DNA of 64,000 nucleotides from Weeksellaceae bacterium TAE3-ERU29 (GTDB lineage: Bacteria > Bacteroidota > Bacteroidia > Flavobacteriales > Weeksellaceae). Below the pieces are notes generated by a model. The model was given only the letters and a program-made list of their open reading frames with translations. It did no database searches and was not told where the DNA came from. Location of the stretch: the NCBI GenBank assembly GCA_019218445.1, contig JAHUUM010000001.1, positions 1 to 64,000 on the forward strand. The letters are read 5' to 3'. Of the stretch, positions 27,517-62,864 are shown one piece after another; the first letter of the stretch is position 1, and every line of letters starts with the position of its first letter. A program made the position numbers and the translations under genes.

Positions 27517-30500
27517 TTAATTCAATATTAATTCTGATGAGACTGGTTTTGTATTTTCAAAATTTGCTTTTATAAAATATACTCCCTTTTTAAAATCCGA
27601 TACATTAATTTTCGTATCATAGATATTAAAGATGTTTTTAGAGTAAATCAGTTGACCTAAAACATTATAAAATTCGATAGACTTTATTTTTTCAGAAATG
27701 TTAGATTTAATATTTACAAAATCAGTTGCCGGATTAGGATATATTGATATTTCCTTTTTCAAACCAATGCCTCCGGTTGTGTATTTATAAGTATCTGAAT
27801 AAATTGTCCTTCCATCATGTGTAGCTACTAATCTATAGTAATATGTTTGATTCGGTATTAAGTTGTTAATCAAAGCTGTTATTAGGTTAGTATTGTAATT
27901 ATAAACCTCATTTGGTGTTCCAATAATGGTTGAACCAAAACTATCAGTAACTCCATATTCAAAATGAACATCTGTTAAATTACGTCCATAACTATTAATT
28001 AAACCTCTTAACTCTATAGAGTTTGATTGAGCTTTCTTCATTGTACCATCAACTATTATAATATCTTCTGAGAAATTAAAAACCCTTTCTACACTATAAA
28101 TAGCTTCTCCATTATAAGTAGCTTTTAGCCTATAACGGTAGTTTAAACTTGTATCTATATTAGGTATTGTAGCAGTAACATATTTTGAATGATTAGCATT
28201 AACTCGCGAAGGTGTAGCCGGAACGCTATTTTTATAATCAGTAGTTCCATATTCAAACACTATGTCCGTTATACTTTCATTATTAGACTGTAAATGTGCT
28301 AATAATGTTACATTAGCACCTTCAATATCTATAGGATAAAGACTAATTTTATAATCCGGATATGTAGAAAAAGATAGTATATCTCCATAAATATTTTCTC
28401 CTTGATAAATCGCTTTTATTCTACAATAATATTGAGTATCCGGTTCTAAGTTATTTAAATTTACCCTAACACTTTCTGTTGTATTCCCTTTTATAAAATC
28501 CGGAGTTACTCTTATAGTTTTATTTAAAGCATCAGCACTTGTGCCATATTGAATCTCAATATTTGTAATATCATGTTCATTAGAAATTATATCAGCATAA
28601 ATTACAGCGGTAGTACGTGACAAGCCAGATAGGGAAATTATTTTCATTTCATAATCAGGGAGAGTTTTAAAACTTAAAATTTGACTATAACCTGTACTTG
28701 AATTCTGCTTTCCGGATAATCTGTAATAATAAGTAGTATTGGGCTCTAAATTCTTTAAATCAACAGAAACACTTAAAGATTCACTTGTGTCAACTGTACT
28801 AGCGGATGCAGTCATAAAATTATCAAAAGACTGATTAGTACTATATTCAAATTGAATGTTTGAAATAGTTCCCCCATTAGAGGTAATATTACCAGTTATA
28901 GTTGCACTTGAATTAGTAATATTCTCCGCAGGATTAACATAAGAAACTATAGTTCTATACTCTATATTACTTCTGAAGATTTTACCATTTGTACCTGCTG
29001 TATAAATCTTATTATCAACAAGATCAATAGAGTTGATAACATACTGACGAGTGAGGTACTCCCAATTCAAACCTCCGTTTTCTGTTTTATAAAGTTTCCC
29101 GTCTTCGTCCGCTATATAACCTACATTCTCCGAATAAAAACTAATCTTTGTATAATTTTCATATGGACCTTTTAATTGTATCCAGTCAGCTCCCCTATCA
29201 GTTGTTTTATAAATTAGACCTTCATCTCCTACAGAATAACCGTTATTCTCATTTATAAAGTCAAATGCGACAATATCTTTATTCTCCACATCAAGACTTA
29301 TACTCCATGTATTTCCACCATCAATAGTTTTGTATAGATTACCATTATGTATACCATAGCCAATTTTTTCATTAAGAAATTGAAGGTGTTTAAATTTTTG
29401 ATTATAAATTTGTTTCCAAGTGTTTCCTCCATCAGTAGTTTTTATTAATTTATTTTGATTAAATCCACCTGATATGAAACCAGTATTTTCATCTATAAAA
29501 AAGACTGAACTTATTCCCTCATCAATAAAAACACTCAATCGTTTCCAAGACTTTCCACCATCAGTAGTTTTAAAGATATCACCAGAGTTACTATTAGGTC
29601 CTCCTCCTATAGAATATCCAATCTTTTCATTTACAAAATATAACCCAGTACTATGGCTATAATGATTCACAGAAGATAAATAAAACCAATTGTCTCCAAA
29701 GTCAGTTGTTTTATAATAATTATTCCTTGACCTTGCAAAACCAATTCCGCTATCAAATACTTTAATATTATCAAAATCATTATAATTTTCAGAATATGAC
29801 ACCCAAGTATTACCTCCATCTATTGTTTTAACAATACGACCACGAGCTCCAGTTGCATAACCAATATTACGGTCTTGGAAATAAATTCCATACATAGAAG
29901 TATCTGATATATATCCTTTTTGGAAAAAAATTTTATCCCATGTATTCCCTCCGTCAGTTGTTTTATAAGTAGCTCCCGCGTCTCCGGTAGCAAAGCCATT
30001 ATTTTCATCTATAAAATGAAAGTCATATATTGCAGTATCTGTTCCCGTAATTTTCACCCATGTTTCTCCTGCATCTGTTGTTTTATACATTTCACTATGT
30101 TCCCTTGTAGCAAAACCTATATTCTTATTAACAAAGTAAACCATAAAGTAATTTGAAGGTGTAGTATTACTGTCATCTTTTGTTACATACCAATTTCTAC
30201 CTCCATCTATAGTTTTTAATACAATTCCATTAGAACAAACCGCATGTCCAACTAAAGAACCGGTAAAAAACGTTTTTCTAACTCTATAGTTTGAAATATT
30301 CAATCTTCTCCATGTAGCTCCTCCATTGTCAGTCTTTACAATACTATTTGAAGTTGACAATATAATATTTTCGTCATCAATAATATTAACTGTATTAAAA
30401 TTACCATCAAACCCCGTAGATATTTGGCTCCATGAATTCCCATTGTCGATAGATTTTAAAACATACCCGTGATCTCCAACAATATAACCGGCTGTATTAT

Positions 30501-30738
30501 AGAAACTCATATCATTCCCACTAGATATATTCTGTTTCTTTGACCAAGTATTTCCAGCGTCTATTGTTTCTAACAATTCATTAGATGTTATTATATAACC
30601 AGCATTAGAAGTAACAAACTCAATATCTTTTCCAACACTTGCCGTTGGTTTAGGATTCAATAATTCCCAATTTGTTTGAGAATGAACTTTATTCATAAAT
30701 AAAGTAATACAAAACAAAATAAGTAACTGCTTTTTCAT
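27517..30738 (-). CDS. Type IX-secreted protein with YCF48-like and fibronectin-like repeats
   Basis: 1073 residues. A signal peptide (LLILFCITLFMNKVHSQ) is followed by about 13 short repeats centred on TTDGGNTW-like motifs up to about residue 580. They form the beta-propeller known from YCF48/sialidase-like proteins. Four beta-sandwich repeats of 95-100 residues follow (for example ITNIEIQYGTSADA and TYYYRLSG), resembling fibronectin type III. The last 75 residues carry the type IX sorting tail, with EISIYPNPATDFVNI near residue 1000 and ending SSELILN. It is thus exported to the cell surface or medium by the type IX system. Ligand unknown. Confidence 0.88.
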   Translation of the reverse strand: MKKQLLILFCITLFMNKVHSQTNWELLNPKPTASVGKDIEFVTSNAGYIITSNELLETIDAGNTWSKKQNISSGNDMSFYNTAGYIVGDHGYVLKSIDNGNSWSQISTGFDGNFNTVNIIDDENIILSTSNSIVKTDNGGATWRRLNISNYRVRKTFFTGSLVGHAVCSNGIVLKTIDGGRNWYVTKDDSNTTPSNYFMVYFVNKNIGFATREHSEMYKTTDAGETWVKITGTDTAIYDFHFIDENNGFATGDAGATYKTTDGGNTWDKIFFQKGYISDTSMYGIYFQDRNIGYATGARGRIVKTIDGGNTWVSYSENYNDFDNIKVFDSGIGFARSRNNYYKTTDFGDNWFYLSSVNHYSHSTGLYFVNEKIGYSIGGGPNSNSGDIFKTTDGGKSWKRLSVFIDEGISSVFFIDENTGFISGGFNQNKLIKTTDGGNTWKQIYNQKFKHLQFLNEKIGYGIHNGNLYKTIDGGNTWSISLDVENKDIVAFDFINENNGYSVGDEGLIYKTTDRGADWIQLKGPYENYTKISFYSENVGYIADEDGKLYKTENGGLNWEYLTRQYVINSIDLVDNKIYTAGTNGKIFRSNIEYRTIVSYVNPAENITNSSATITGNITSNGGTISNIQFEYSTNQSFDNFMTASASTVDTSESLSVSVDLKNLEPNTTYYYRLSGKQNSSTGYSQILSFKTLPDYEMKIISLSGLSRTTAVIYADIISNEHDITNIEIQYGTSADALNKTIRVTPDFIKGNTTESVRVNLNNLEPDTQYYCRIKAIYQGENIYGDILSFSTYPDYKISLYPIDIEGANVTLLAHLQSNNESITDIVFEYGTTDYKNSVPATPSRVNANHSKYVTATIPNIDTSLNYRYRLKATYNGEAIYSVERVFNFSEDIIIVDGTMKKAQSNSIELRGLINSYGRNLTDVHFEYGVTDSFGSTIIGTPNEVYNYNTNLITALINNLIPNQTYYYRLVATHDGRTIYSDTYKYTTGGIGLKKEISIYPNPATDFVNIKSNISEKIKSIEFYNVLGQLIYSKNIFNIYDTKINVSDFKKGVYFIKANFENTKPVSSELILN

Positions 30739-31649: not shown

Positions 31650-31847
31650 ACCCATTGTGCATTATGATATTTTTCGAGAATGTCCTCTATATCATATACT
31701 CCTTCTTCCAAGTATTCAAAGAACTTTCAAGGGGATAATTTTGGAAGTAATTTAGCCTCTACTACGTTCTAATCTCCCCCTTGAAGGGGATTTATTACAA
31801 TAAAAATAAGGTTTTAATTCTTATTTCAAACAAAATTCACAACGAGT
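31650..31847. mobile_element. Diverged copy of the MITE family (copy 0)
   Basis: 198 bp resembling the three copies at 59104-59893 in the same orientation. Ends are ACCCATTGTGCATT and AATTCACAACGAGT, each with one change from the perfect family end. The middle keeps ATTATGATATTTTTCGAGA, TAATTTTGGAAGTAATTTA and AAGGTTTTAATTCTTATTTC. No clear target duplication remains, so it is an older insertion. Its right end is 4 nt from the stop codon of the S41 peptidase gene. Confidence 0.8.
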
Positions 31848-56874: not shown

Positions 56875-58863
56875 ATGAAATTCAATCTGAAATCAGACTA
56901 TAAACCTACCGGAGATCAGCCAAAAGCGATTAAAGAATTGTCCGATGGTATTCTAAACGGAGATAAATATCAAACACTATTAGGAGTTACGGGGTCAGGG
57001 AAAACTTTTACAGTTGCTAATGTAGTGAGTGAAGTACAACGCCCTACTTTAGTTTTAGCCCATAATAAAACTTTAGCAGCTCAATTATACATGGAGTTTC
57101 AAGAGTTCTTTCCGGATAATGCCGTAGAATATTTTGTATCTTATTATGATTATTACCAACCAGAAGCTTATATCCCGCACTCATCAACTTATATAGAAAA
57201 AGATTTATCTATAAATGAAGAAATAGAAAAATTAAGGTTAAGTGCTACTTCTGCCTTACTTTCAGGACGAAGAGATATTATAGTAGTCGCATCAGTTTCT
57301 TGTATTTATGGGATAGGAAACCCTACTGAATTTCATAAAAATGTAATTAAGACAGAAGCCGGACAGCAAATTTCCAGAACTCACTTTTTACATAAATTAG
57401 TAAACAGTTTGTACGCCAGAACAACAGGAGAGTTTTCCCGAGGGCATTTCCGAGTAAAAGGTGATACCGTAGAAGTTTTTCCTGCCTATGCCGATGATGG
57501 AGTTCGCTTCCATTTTTACGGAGATACCGTAGAAGAAATTGAAACTTTTAACGTTCCTACCGGTAAAAGAATTGCCGGATTTGATAAAATTAATGTATAT
57601 CCTGCAAATTTATTCGTGACTTCACCCGATACGTTACAAAAAGCAATAAAAGATATTCAAATAGATTTAGGTAAACAAGTAAATTATTTTCAAGACATCG
57701 GTAAAAATTTAGAGGCAAAACGTTTACAAGAACGTACTGAATTCGATATTGAAATGATGAAAGAATTAGGCTACTGCTCCGGAATAGAGAATTATTCTCG
57801 CTATATGGACGGCAGACTTCCCGGTACTCGTCCGTTTTGTCTTTTAGATTATTTTCCCGATGATTATTTAATGGTAATTGATGAATCTCACGTTACCGTT
57901 CCGCAAGTTCATGCCATGTACGGAGGCGACCGAAGCAGAAAAGAGAATTTAGTAGAATACGGATTTAGACTTCCTGCCGCAATGGATAACCGACCTTTAA
58001 AATTTGAAGAGTTTGAGGGGTTACAAAATCAAGTAATTTATGTTTCTGCCACTCCTGCAAACTATGAATTGGAACTTTCCGGCGGTGTGGTTGTAGAACA
58101 AATTATAAGACCTACAGGTTTATTAGATCCTGTAATAGAAGTTCGACCTTCACAAAATCAAATGGATGATTTAATGGAGGAAATTCAAAAAAGAGCCGAA
58201 ATAGATGAGCGTACCTTAGTTACTACCTTAACCAAGCGTATGGCAGAGGAATTGACGAAATATTTAACTCGATACGGCGTAAGAACACAATATATTCACT
58301 CTGATGTTGACACGCTGGACAGAGTGAAAATCATGCAAGATTTAAGAGAAGGACTTTTTGATGTTTTAGTCGGAGTAAACTTACTGAGAGAAGGTTTAGA
58401 TTTACCCGAAGTTTCGCTTGTAGCAATTTTAGATGCTGACAAAGAAGGTTTTTTAAGAAATCACCGCTCTCTAACCCAAACCGCAGGACGTGCCGCCAGA
58501 AATGTGAATGGTCTTGTAATTATGTATGCCGATAAAATTACAGGTAGTATGCAACAAACCATAGATGAAACTGAACGCCGACGAGAAATTCAAATAAAAT
58601 ATAATAAAGAGCATCATAAAACACCTCAACCGCTTATAAAGAAAATAAATCGCCTGAAACAAGAAGCTGAGTTTGAAAAAAATCCTTATGTAAGAAAAGA
58701 AGCGGTAAAAACAGCAGCAGAAAACAGAGTAAGCTACGGCACTGAAGATATAGAAAAAATCATTGCTAAAAAGACTAAAGAAATGGAAGATGCCGCTAAA
58801 AATTTAGACTTTTTAAGAGCTGCTAAGATAAGAGATGAAATTAATGCACTGAAACAGAATTAA
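56875..58863 (+). CDS. uvrB: Excinuclease ABC subunit B
   Basis: 662 residues. UvrB verifies DNA damage during nucleotide excision repair. Walker [17 protein letters not shown] is near residue 35. The beta-hairpin region is [19 protein letters not shown] near residue 93. The helicase motif II is [13 protein letters not shown] near residue 338. RAGRAAR-like [12 protein letters not shown] lies near residue 534, and a C-terminal UVR motif (EEMEDAA...[13 protein letters not shown]) ends it. A promoter and a near-leaderless start are visible. Confidence 0.97.
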
Positions 58864-59103
58864 TTTTATATTTTTACATTCAATTTCATATCTTAAAGTT
58901 AGGGTAATTTTAAGTATAATGAATTATTCTACTTTTAAATTTACTTCCATTCTTCCCTTTCCAACATTGGATATTTAGGGTCTGCGAATTCGGGAAGTTA
59001 CATTTCTTGTTTATAGAAACTATATTACTTATTTGTACCTTTTTCATATTTGATTTTTATTCGGTTTACTCTTAATATAGTCATTGGGTTTTTACTTTTA
59101 TTC

Positions 59104-59307
59104 ACCCGTTGTGCATTATGATATTTTTCGAGAGCAAACACCCCTATATCACATACTCCTTTTCCAAGTTTTCAAAGGACTTTCCTCAAGGGGGTAATTT
59201 TGGAAGTAATTTAACCTCCACTTGCGTTCTAATTTCCCCTTTGAGAGGGTATTTATTACAAAAAAATAAGGTTTTAATTCTTATTTCAAACAAAATGCAC
59301 AACGGGT
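59104..59307. mobile_element. MITE copy 1
   Basis: 204 bp with perfect 14-bp inverted ends (ACCCGTTGTGCATT / AATGCACAACGGGT). Flanked on both sides by TTTTATTC, an 8-bp target duplication. Differs from copy 3 by one substitution and one single-base indel. Inner arms CTCAAGGGG and CCCCTTTGAG nearly pair, so the element could fold. It encodes no protein. Confidence 0.88.
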
Positions 59308-59411
59308 TTTTATTCATTTATTTAAATGCTGTAAAACTCTATCAACTCACTCCGTTTTTTAAATATTCGTATGATTTTAAAACTAATATACGCTCTAAAG
59401 AAACTAAAATA

Positions 59412-59616
59412 ACCCGTTGTGCATTATGATATTTTTCGAGAGCAAACACCCCTATATCACATACTCCTTTTCCAAGTCTTCAAAGGGCTTTCCTCAAGGG
59501 GGTAATTTTGGAAGTAATTTAACCTCCACTTGCGTTCTAATTTCCCCTTTGAGAGGGTGTTTTATTACAAAAAAATAAGGTTTTAATTCTTATTTCAAAC
59601 AAAATGCACAACGGGT
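59412..59616. mobile_element. MITE copy 2
   Basis: 205 bp, same orientation, same perfect ends. Differs from copy 3 at 4 positions by eye. The flanks are CTAAAATA and ATAATATA, 6 of 8 matching, so the target duplication is imperfect or has changed. Confidence 0.85.
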
Positions 59617-59688
59617 ATAATATATATTATTTCTAAAAGAAAAATAAAAACATGCAAATTTTCTCCATCTAAAATTAAATGACTATAA

Positions 59689-59893
59689 ACCCGTTGTGCA
59701 TTATGATATTTTTCGAGAGCAAACACCCTTATATCACATACTCCTTTTCCAAGTTTTCAAAGGACTTTCCTCAAGGGGGTAATTTTGGAAGTAATTTAAC
59801 CTCCACTTGCGTTCTAATTTCCCCTTTGAGAGGGTATTTTATTACAAAAAAATAAGGTTTTAATTCTTATTTCAAACAAAATGCACAACGGGT
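59689..59893. mobile_element. MITE copy 3
   Basis: 205 bp with the same perfect 14-bp ends, flanked on both sides by GACTATAA, an exact 8-bp target duplication. It ends 16 nt before the stop codon of the small secreted protein gene. Confidence 0.88.
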
Positions 59894-59909
59894 GACTATA
59901 AATTTATAC

Positions 59910-60428
59910 CTAATTCCAAAAATACCAATGCTCTCCGTTAAAAATTGCCAATGATTTACTTTTCACATCATACACAATAGTCCCCGGCTCTGGATTGCTG
60001 ATATCTTTAGTAACGTCATTTACATGCGGAAGCAACAAAGCTTTTTGATTACTATCTAATTTTAATACAGCAGGGTCATTTGTGAAATCCGATAAGGATC
60101 CGTCTGAAATAATTACTCCTTCTCCCACTTCTTCTAATGTTGGTAAATAAATTTCTTGGGTTGACGCTTTCGTTAATTCTACTTCTCCACTTTCTGATTT
60201 ATACATTACTTTCTTTGTGTTAGCATCTAACCATAAAGCACCTTCTTTTGCATAACCCGAATCTTGTAAAATAGGTAATATTATTCCTTTTGCCTCCCCG
60301 TTGGCTTCTTTTACATCATTAAACTCCATGATAGAGCTTGAACTTCTTAAAGTTGATTTATCTATCCCTACTTGTGCCCGTGTTAGTCCACACAAAAATA
60401 GCACAGACAATATGATTACTTTTTTCAT
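59910..60428 (-). CDS. Small secreted protein next to the PL8 lyases
   Basis: 172 residues with a signal peptide ending at TRAQVG. The mature part has two short related units, one with AKGIILPILQDSGYAKEGALW near residue 45 and one with KALLLPHVNDVTK near residue 128. It ends PGTIVYDVKSKSLAIFNGEHWYFWN. The last 30 residues match the pattern P-E/P-G-T/M-I/L-Y/W-D/N...L...W seen at the end of both PL8 proteins. It follows the second lyase by 15 nt in the same operon. Role unknown, perhaps a surface partner. Confidence 0.65.
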   Translation of the reverse strand: MKKVIILSVLFLCGLTRAQVGIDKSTLRSSSSIMEFNDVKEANGEAKGIILPILQDSGYAKEGALWLDANTKKVMYKSESGEVELTKASTQEIYLPTLEEVGEGVIISDGSLSDFTNDPAVLKLDSNQKALLLPHVNDVTKDISNPEPGTIVYDVKSKSLAIFNGEHWYFWN

Positions 60429-60443
60429 ATTACTAATTTATTT

Positions 60444-62864
60444 TTATTCATTACATCCTTGCTTTATACATTTCCAAGCTTCTCCTAACCCAAAATCTTT
60501 ATACATTTCTAAACATTGCTTGTCTTTATTCCAAATCAACATTCCCTCTACAGGATCAGCAATGTTATCTCTTTCATTTGTAGTTAAACGAGTAATGACA
60601 AAAGGTTTGTTATTAGATTCTAACTTTATAAAGCCGTTTCGGGAATCAGCTACCCAATTGTCCGTATGATTTGATGTAGTAATTCCTACTTTTGTGGGCG
60701 ATACAGTTCCATCTAATTTAGGTGGTTTAGAACAAACCAATTGAAATCTTGCTTGGACAGTCTTTCCTTTATATGGTGCTGTAGGCATTATAAATTCTTT
60801 AATATTTTGTATCCCTAAATTTACATAGGTTACATTTATACTTGTTTCTGTTTGATTGGGATCGGCTATGCTTACCTCAACTGTATTATCCGCTAAATGT
60901 CTTATTTGTAAAATACATGGCTTATCTACAGAAATGCTTTCTTCTCCAAAATTTAAAGTTCCTGCTTGATAAAATACTACTTGTGTTATCTTTAACCTTT
61001 TATCTTGAACCGCTTGGATTTGAGCATCATTTCTAATAATTTCGATGTTCTGTTGTGCATGATTATTTATAAGGCTCTCTTTTGTGGTTGCCGGCAAAAC
61101 AATATACGAATACGTTGCATTGTTAGGATTTACTCCATGGTCAAACCAAAGTTTAAATACTTTTGATTGAGTAGGATTGTTAGAATGATTCTCATTAACT
61201 CTATGCCAACTCCCGCTTTGATTTTGATTACTTAGTTGTACGCTCGCCTGATTAGGGAAAACATAAGTAACATGATTATGCCAAATGGCTTCTGTTGTAC
61301 CCCCTCCATTGGTATTTAATTGAGATACTGTACCGCTCTGCAAACTAAATACATTCCCTTTACTAAACGTTTGATTGATTGTGGTTGTAATATTTTCTGC
61401 TCCGACAGCATTGATACCTGCTCCTATACATACAACGGCTTCATCAAAAAAGAAATAAGCTTTTTTTGCAGTAACCCCATCATAATCTTGTGTATAAACA
61501 CTCGCTCCATAAATACCATCTGAAACGCCTCCTACAAAAGTGGTAGCTCCCGGCTCTCCCCAATTAACTGTCATTTCTTTATCAAAATCATAGTCTTTGG
61601 CTGTTACTCCGGGTATTTTATCCCACTCCCATACCGGCATTATATTATAATACTCATCTCCAAAAACTTGAATATTAGTAGATCCATCCGGCAATACCCT
61701 TCCTAATATATTTTCTTTATTACCACTTTCTGTTCTTCTTGTTCTATTTGAAACACTTCTTACATTAAAAGAATATTCCGGTCTAATATGTTGCGTATAA
61801 TCCCCTCGCCAAAAATAGGTATACTTGGGACTTATTCCTTGGGAAATATCATTTGGATTAGATAACCTTTTCTTTAAATTTGCCACTTCTAACTCATAAG
61901 AATCTCCGGCTACTACAGCAATCTGAGACAATAAATTATTGTCATTTTGCTCATCCATTAACCAATATTTATCTAAATATCTAATTCTCGAAATCCCTCT
62001 ACCCTCTAAATTAAAATCCATATATCTCCCCCGTATTCCTCCTATATAACTTTCAAAAAAGAATTTATTTAGAATTTCTGCTTTTTCTTGTGGCAATGCA
62101 TAAGGAGTCCCGACAAACCAAGAAGCAATTCTATAAGAGCCAATCAAAAAAACTGTTCCATAACTGGATATATGTAGCTGAGGACCATGTTGAAAATAAG
62201 AATAATCATATTGAATACCTTCATCCTCTTGGGTGATTTGAATAGGTTCGTATGCATACCCTACAGATTTCGTTAAAAATATACTATCTTCCTCTACCAA
62301 TGCTCTGTAAATATTATGAATGGCAATATCTATTTTATTAGCACCTGTCATACTTTCTGCCGACCTAGTTTTTTTCATAACCAATATAATCTCTTCTTTT
62401 ACAGAAGAACTTATTGGCTGGGATGAAGTAGAGAGTAATATTAATATGCTCCCTAAATATTTAGGTGCACTTATATCATTAAACCACCAATTATTACTTC
62501 TTGGCTTTTTCTGATACCAAAAATGTAATCCTTTTTCAATTGATGATTTTAATTCTATGTTATTAAAGTATGAGCTTTCAGGAAAAGTATAAGCTACTGC
62601 CATTAATTCCAATCTCTTCAAATGTTCTGTAGGTTCCCAATTCGTTCTGCTTTTATCATTATAGTTAATACTTGCCCACGAACCATTGGGCTGAAGCGTT
62701 TGGATATAATTTCCTATTTGATTTGCATTCAAATACTTCCCTTTTTCAGAAAAAATACCTTGTGCAATTCTACCACGAATAAGGGAGAAATCTTGTGCAC
62801 TCACCTTTTGTAAACCACAAATTAATGTGCATAAAAGGGTTATTTGAAGTAATTTATTTCTCAT
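60444..62864 (-). CDS. Polysaccharide lyase family 8 (chondroitin/hyaluronate lyase-like), copy 1
   Basis: 806 residues with a signal peptide ending at KVSAQ. The N-terminal alpha/alpha toroid has SWASINYNDKSRTNWEPTEH near residue 57 and WWFNDISAPKYLG near residue 121. The catalytic site matches PL8: His and Tyr in FQHGPQLHISSYG near residue 224 and arginines in NLEGRGISRIRYL near residue 285. Beta domains follow to about residue 700. The final 100 residues (DPVEGMLIWNKDKQCLEMYK, ending with WKCIKQGCNE) are an extra module not part of PL8. PL8 enzymes cut chondroitin, hyaluronan or xanthan by beta-elimination. Substrate here not settled. Confidence 0.88.
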   Translation of the reverse strand: MRNKLLQITLLCTLICGLQKVSAQDFSLIRGRIAQGIFSEKGKYLNANQIGNYIQTLQPNGSWASINYNDKSRTNWEPTEHLKRLELMAVAYTFPESSYFNNIELKSSIEKGLHFWYQKKPRSNNWWFNDISAPKYLGSILILLSTSSQPISSSVKEEIILVMKKTRSAESMTGANKIDIAIHNIYRALVEEDSIFLTKSVGYAYEPIQITQEDEGIQYDYSYFQHGPQLHISSYGTVFLIGSYRIASWFVGTPYALPQEKAEILNKFFFESYIGGIRGRYMDFNLEGRGISRIRYLDKYWLMDEQNDNNLLSQIAVVAGDSYELEVANLKKRLSNPNDISQGISPKYTYFWRGDYTQHIRPEYSFNVRSVSNRTRRTESGNKENILGRVLPDGSTNIQVFGDEYYNIMPVWEWDKIPGVTAKDYDFDKEMTVNWGEPGATTFVGGVSDGIYGASVYTQDYDGVTAKKAYFFFDEAVVCIGAGINAVGAENITTTINQTFSKGNVFSLQSGTVSQLNTNGGGTTEAIWHNHVTYVFPNQASVQLSNQNQSGSWHRVNENHSNNPTQSKVFKLWFDHGVNPNNATYSYIVLPATTKESLINNHAQQNIEIIRNDAQIQAVQDKRLKITQVVFYQAGTLNFGEESISVDKPCILQIRHLADNTVEVSIADPNQTETSINVTYVNLGIQNIKEFIMPTAPYKGKTVQARFQLVCSKPPKLDGTVSPTKVGITTSNHTDNWVADSRNGFIKLESNNKPFVITRLTTNERDNIADPVEGMLIWNKDKQCLEMYKDFGLGEAWKCIKQGCNE

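Follow-up and report, generated by a model that had tools for sequence, protein, structure and literature searches.

A short gene-less repeat family with IS982-type ends in Weeksellaceae bacterium TAE3-ERU29

Three short units between two convergent genes

The locus was analyzed within a window of 64,000 nucleotides (the whole stretch of DNA under study), in which a cluster of three short units occupies the gap separating two convergent genes. To the left lies a 662-aa open frame which, from its translation, reads as uvrB (excinuclease ABC subunit B), and to the right a gene for a 172-aa protein of no known function. In three congeners only the left gene could be aligned, at about 77-78% identity in the nearest species, and nothing aligned past it. 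A relative of the 172-aa gene with 71% DNA identity occurs on contig C1 of the host genome (C1:110239-110786). The same gene is adjoined by an 806-aa gene that reads by eye as a polysaccharide lyase, the pair spanning positions 59910-62864 of the window. The features are located as follows:

31650-31847, + strand: fourth, older copy of the unit, 198 bp, 87% identical, with decayed ends and no duplication remaining
56875-58863, + strand: left neighbor of the cluster, 662-aa open frame
59096-59103: left target-site duplication of copy 1, TTTTATTC, an exact match to 59308-59315
59104-59307, + strand: copy 1, 204 bp, same sequence as C14:30497-30700
59137-59199, + strand: palindromic intergenic repeat module in copy 1, 97% to the consensus of the free-standing repeat
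59308-59315: right target-site duplication of copy 1, TTTTATTC
59412-59616, + strand: copy 2, 205 bp, 98% to copy 1
59445-59507, + strand: repeat module in copy 2
59681-59688: left target-site duplication of copy 3, GACTATAA
59689-59893, + strand: copy 3, 205 bp, 99% to copy 1
59722-59784, + strand: repeat module in copy 3
59894-59901: right target-site duplication of copy 3, GACTATAA
59910-60428, - strand: right neighbor of the cluster, 172-aa protein of no known function

The initial annotation had described three near-identical units of 204-205 bp in one orientation with 14-bp inverted ends, and their coordinates, common orientation and an identity of 98-99% were confirmed. Each copy starts with ACCCGTTGTGCATT and carries the exact reverse complement at its other end, the inverted repeats being perfect in all three. 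Within the window, eight matches to this 14-bp pattern were found at up to two mismatches, compared to 0.24 expected. The units were also correctly described as gene-less, as their open frames are short, extend beyond the unit and include no transposase gene. In an Rfam search of the window a tRNA was the only match.

The different, exact 8-bp duplications that had been noted around copies 1 and 3 were found as TTTTATTC and GACTATAA, respectively. Copy 2 had no exact target-site duplication, its flanks CTAAAATA and ATAATATA being equal at 6 of 8 positions. The diverged copy at 31650-31847 lies in the same window and was absent from the initial annotation.

Copies of the family across the genome

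The search was extended to the 2.37-Mb draft genome, where allowing up to one mismatch gave 34 occurrences of the 14-bp end and 0 of the reversed control pattern, and where BLAST with the unit returned 28 matches. The family consists of 13 essentially complete copies on nine contigs, plus fragments. The length class of about 204 bp includes the window copies and those on C14 and C8, together with a copy on C6 that has a small deletion near its left end, while copies of 220-232 bp are found on C34 and C2 (two copies) and those of 184 bp on C4, C7, and C39. The size range of 184-232 bp falls within that of short elements (under about 300-400 bp).

Exact duplications of 7, 8, 9 or 11 bp border 10 of the 13 copies and every one is different; the 11-bp repeat of the C7 copy is above the usual length. 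No duplication was found at copy 2, at the 31650 copy or at the C34 copy. The earlier description of the target duplications as 8 bp long thus held for copies 1 and 3 but not strictly for the family, which ranges from 7 to 11 bp. In a flank control of 182 mismatched left/right pairs, 7 bp were reached by one pair and 8 bp or more by none, which excludes chance as the source of the exact duplications, 7 bp or longer, at 10 of 13 copies. The initial annotation had considered that further genomic copies might be missing and that the duplications might be fortuitous, and the 13 copies and the single control pair at 7 bp speak against both.

The C14 copy (30497-30700) is identical to copy 1 and bears its own duplication, so both are independent and probably recent insertions. 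The insertion (region C14:30497-30716) falls exactly on the start codon of a gene for a lipoprotein with leucine-rich-repeat-like sequence, and since the ATG lies inside the duplication, the promoter and ribosome site are displaced. A disruption of this gene, based on a 253-aa frame spanning the insertion, was dropped as a reading, the ATG of the duplication being the most likely start of the gene. At C26:1-181, an end of the unit abuts IS982 sequence that continues from position 935 of the IS, the contig start cutting the unit; this is a copy inserted into an IS copy. The family appears to have been active recently and may still be so.

The common orientation within 800 bp, the identity of 98-99% and the lack of a duplication at copy 2 would fit a cluster made from a single unit by tandem or segmental duplication in place, without transposition. 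However, the exact duplications right at the element ends differ between copies 1 and 3, the spacers separating the copies are unrelated, and an identical copy with its own duplication lies on another contig. Local duplication is refuted for copies 1 and 3 and very improbable for the cluster. The independent transposition proposed earlier for copies 1 and 3, as opposed to tandem copying, is therefore retained, while copy 2 alone could stem from recombination or could have lost one flank.

The candidate parent element and the interior of the unit

The initial annotation had called for a full-length partner transposase acting in trans, had hinted at the IS982 group and had suggested a genome search with the 14-bp end. 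In addition to the further copies, this search led to an autonomous IS with the same ends, by which the parent could be named. The intact element, at C15:16374-17355, is 982 bp long, has 14-bp ends identical to those of the unit (ACCCGTTGTGCATTATGA ... AAAATGCACAACGGGT) and is flanked on both sides by its own 8-bp duplication, ATATCTTT. Its intact 293-aa frame matches the IS982 transposase model NF033520 (NCBIfam) with 246 bits against a cut-off of 130, as well as Pfam DDE_Tnp_1, and acidic residues of the DDE type were read by eye in VDSMP, IADKGY, and RIETL. In length, ACCCGTTGTGCATT ends, duplication and transposase it fits the IS982 family. The insertion splits a host protein frame on the minus strand into parts of 198 and 155 aa. 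Further copies of the parent type (on C33 and C37, at the end of C15 and at the start of C4) are truncated or cut by contig ends, as is common for repeats in draft assemblies, and the true number is thus presumably at least three.

The unit and the C15 IS have 18 bp in common at the left end and 16 bp at the right, with no further match. Judged by these shared ends, the putative parent is the IS982-family element on C15. Descent from this very element rather than from a sister with identical ends is not proven, because nothing beyond the outer 16-18 bp is common to the two. The genome encodes another transposase of IS982 type (C1:147394, 30% aa identity), but the ends around it are different, ACCTGAGTTCGATT, so the end match points to the C15 type and not to IS982 in general.

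The three units are almost certainly a non-autonomous IS982-family MITE, presumably moved in trans by the resident IS982 transposase. A segment of a host intergenic repeat would have been framed by two IS982 ends (18 bp left, 16 bp right), which the transposase of C15:16374-17355 would recognize in trans. The unit would then be moved to AT-rich, mostly intergenic sites, where a target duplication of 7-9 bp, usually 8 bp, would be made. The trans mobilization is suggested by the ends common to MITE and IS, and the route by which the ends came to frame the repeat is likewise a conjecture from sequence. Mobilization by a different IS982 relative, e.g., one since lost, would agree with the 16-18 bp in common and with the occurrence of the same ends on IS982 elements throughout the order. 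It is considered unlikely, as no resident IS apart from the C15 type was seen to carry the MITE ends, those around the second IS982-type transposase differ, and the IS982 types of two congeners are about 63% identical at the aa level.

Between its ends, the MITE matches a palindromic intergenic repeat (AACACCCCTATATCACATACTCC ... CCTCAAGGGG) over positions 34-96 (63 bp). Among 31 genomic places of this repeat that were checked, 14 lay within 170 bp of an IS end with 0-1 mismatch, two had a decayed IS end (3 mismatches), and 15 had none (at least 4 mismatches, the level of random segments). The repeat had no match in the three congeners. An origin of the MITE by internal deletion of the IS is unsupported, as the interior has no match to it. 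The simplest reading of the sequence is that the interior is a captured host intergenic repeat and not derived from the IS, and that the length classes differ through repeat modules gained or lost.

As RNA, the MITE folds strongly on either strand and far better than shuffled sequences (z about -5.5), which is in part due to the inverted ends and the palindromic core. This folding, the match of the inner 63 bp to a dispersed palindromic repeat and its 15 or so occurrences without IS ends could also point to a host-made palindromic intergenic repeat (REP/ERIC-like) in which the IS ends are incidental. In contrast, 10 of 13 copies have duplications that directly adjoin the IS982-type ends, and the unit borders coincide with ends that are the same as in the IS. 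Mobilization of the inner repeat by a RAYT was considered, but a search of the genome revealed no RAYT-type (Y1) transposase. The REP/ERIC-like reading is thus largely refuted, being even less probable than local duplication of the cluster, and stays true only for the cargo of the MITE.

Palindromic intergenic repeats of this genome form a mosaic family with CCCCTCAAGGGG hairpins and CACATACTCC...GACTTTCC modules, found on contigs C22, C3, C10, C50, C12, C23, C24, C5, C16, and C51 and at C1:83688. They often adjoin other dispersed repeats, e.g., CATTGCGAGGAACGAAGCAATC and CTGAAACAAGTTCAG.

A terminator role of the MITE hairpin is speculation. Tentatively, and with a rather low probability, IS982 ends may spread the hairpin repeat to gene borders, where it could serve as a mobile terminator or mRNA-end structure. 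Such ends may also repeatedly capture unrelated short DNA in the bacterial family of the host.

Relatives and known systems

The MITE unit was absent from 119 relatives, in which the few weak matches were internal pieces only. The exact 25-bp start pattern had no match in named genomes, a set from which the host genome is possibly excluded, and plasmid and phage collections gave no match to the MITE. About 40 related IS982 elements were recovered from named Flavobacteriia, nearly all with the same 14-bp ends, and most of those with both flanks readable had duplications of 7-9 bp.

In another genus of the host's bacterial family (genomes G128, G023, and G137), gene-less units were identified that have these IS982 ends but an unrelated interior. 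A 181-bp unit occurs as a single copy at G128:C3:161329-161509. A 237-bp unit with a 7-bp duplication, ATAAATT, lies at G023:C1:574321-574557, with a second copy in G023 and another at G137:C1:181820-182050, i.e., in two species of one genus. Three unrelated interiors were thus seen between IS982 ends in this bacterial family, and the ends have framed DNA other than the transposase more than once. In G123, a genome of the same family, 132 exact 14-bp ends (68 forward, 64 reverse) and a dozen or more IS982 transposase genes of nearly the same sequence were counted, which amounts to a large IS982 expansion.

To our knowledge, IS982 is a poorly studied IS family with a transposition pathway that is not worked out. 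With its parent named, the present MITE offers a clean set of independent insertions for this family, and the 16-18 bp that the MITE has in common with the IS give a good estimate of the minimal end required by the transposase. Otherwise, the finding is an ordinary one for mobile elements, i.e., short DNA parasites presumably moved by the enzyme of another element.

According to a review of the IS982 family (PMC7335449), in which the term MITE is absent, its members have an atypical DDE motif, ends beginning with AC, variable duplications and a length of about 1 kb. The IS982 elements of Confluentibacter, Wocania, Galbibacter, and Chryseobacterium have 14-bp ends as in the MITE and duplications of 7-9 bp, with transposases 65-77% identical, and are autonomous, unlike the MITE. 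The nearest named autonomous relative found for the C15 parent is ISRa1 of Riemerella anatipestifer, which likewise measures about 980 bp and has 14-bp ends starting ACCCGTTGTGCATT. As the two are only about 71% identical (70.6% of DNA positions over the full length), the C15 parent is a separate IS of that group. ISRa1 is autonomous, whereas the present MITE is gene-less, and the papers searched gave no MITE of ISRa1.

The closest counterpart of the unit is MITECca01 of Cardinium cOegib, an IS982-derived MITE of about 240 bp with 169 copies that originated from ISCca4 (PMC9769881). Since MITECca01 is already published, the present family is not the first IS982-derived MITE. Both are gene-less, have IS982-type inverted ends and reside in a Bacteroidota host, and for both a mobilization in trans is inferred, with mostly intergenic positions and some within mobile elements (PMC9769881). 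They differ in abundance, with 169 copies compared to 13 complete ones here. Compared by its description, MITECca01 also keeps a short subterminal IS sequence, whereas the present MITE carries a host palindromic repeat.
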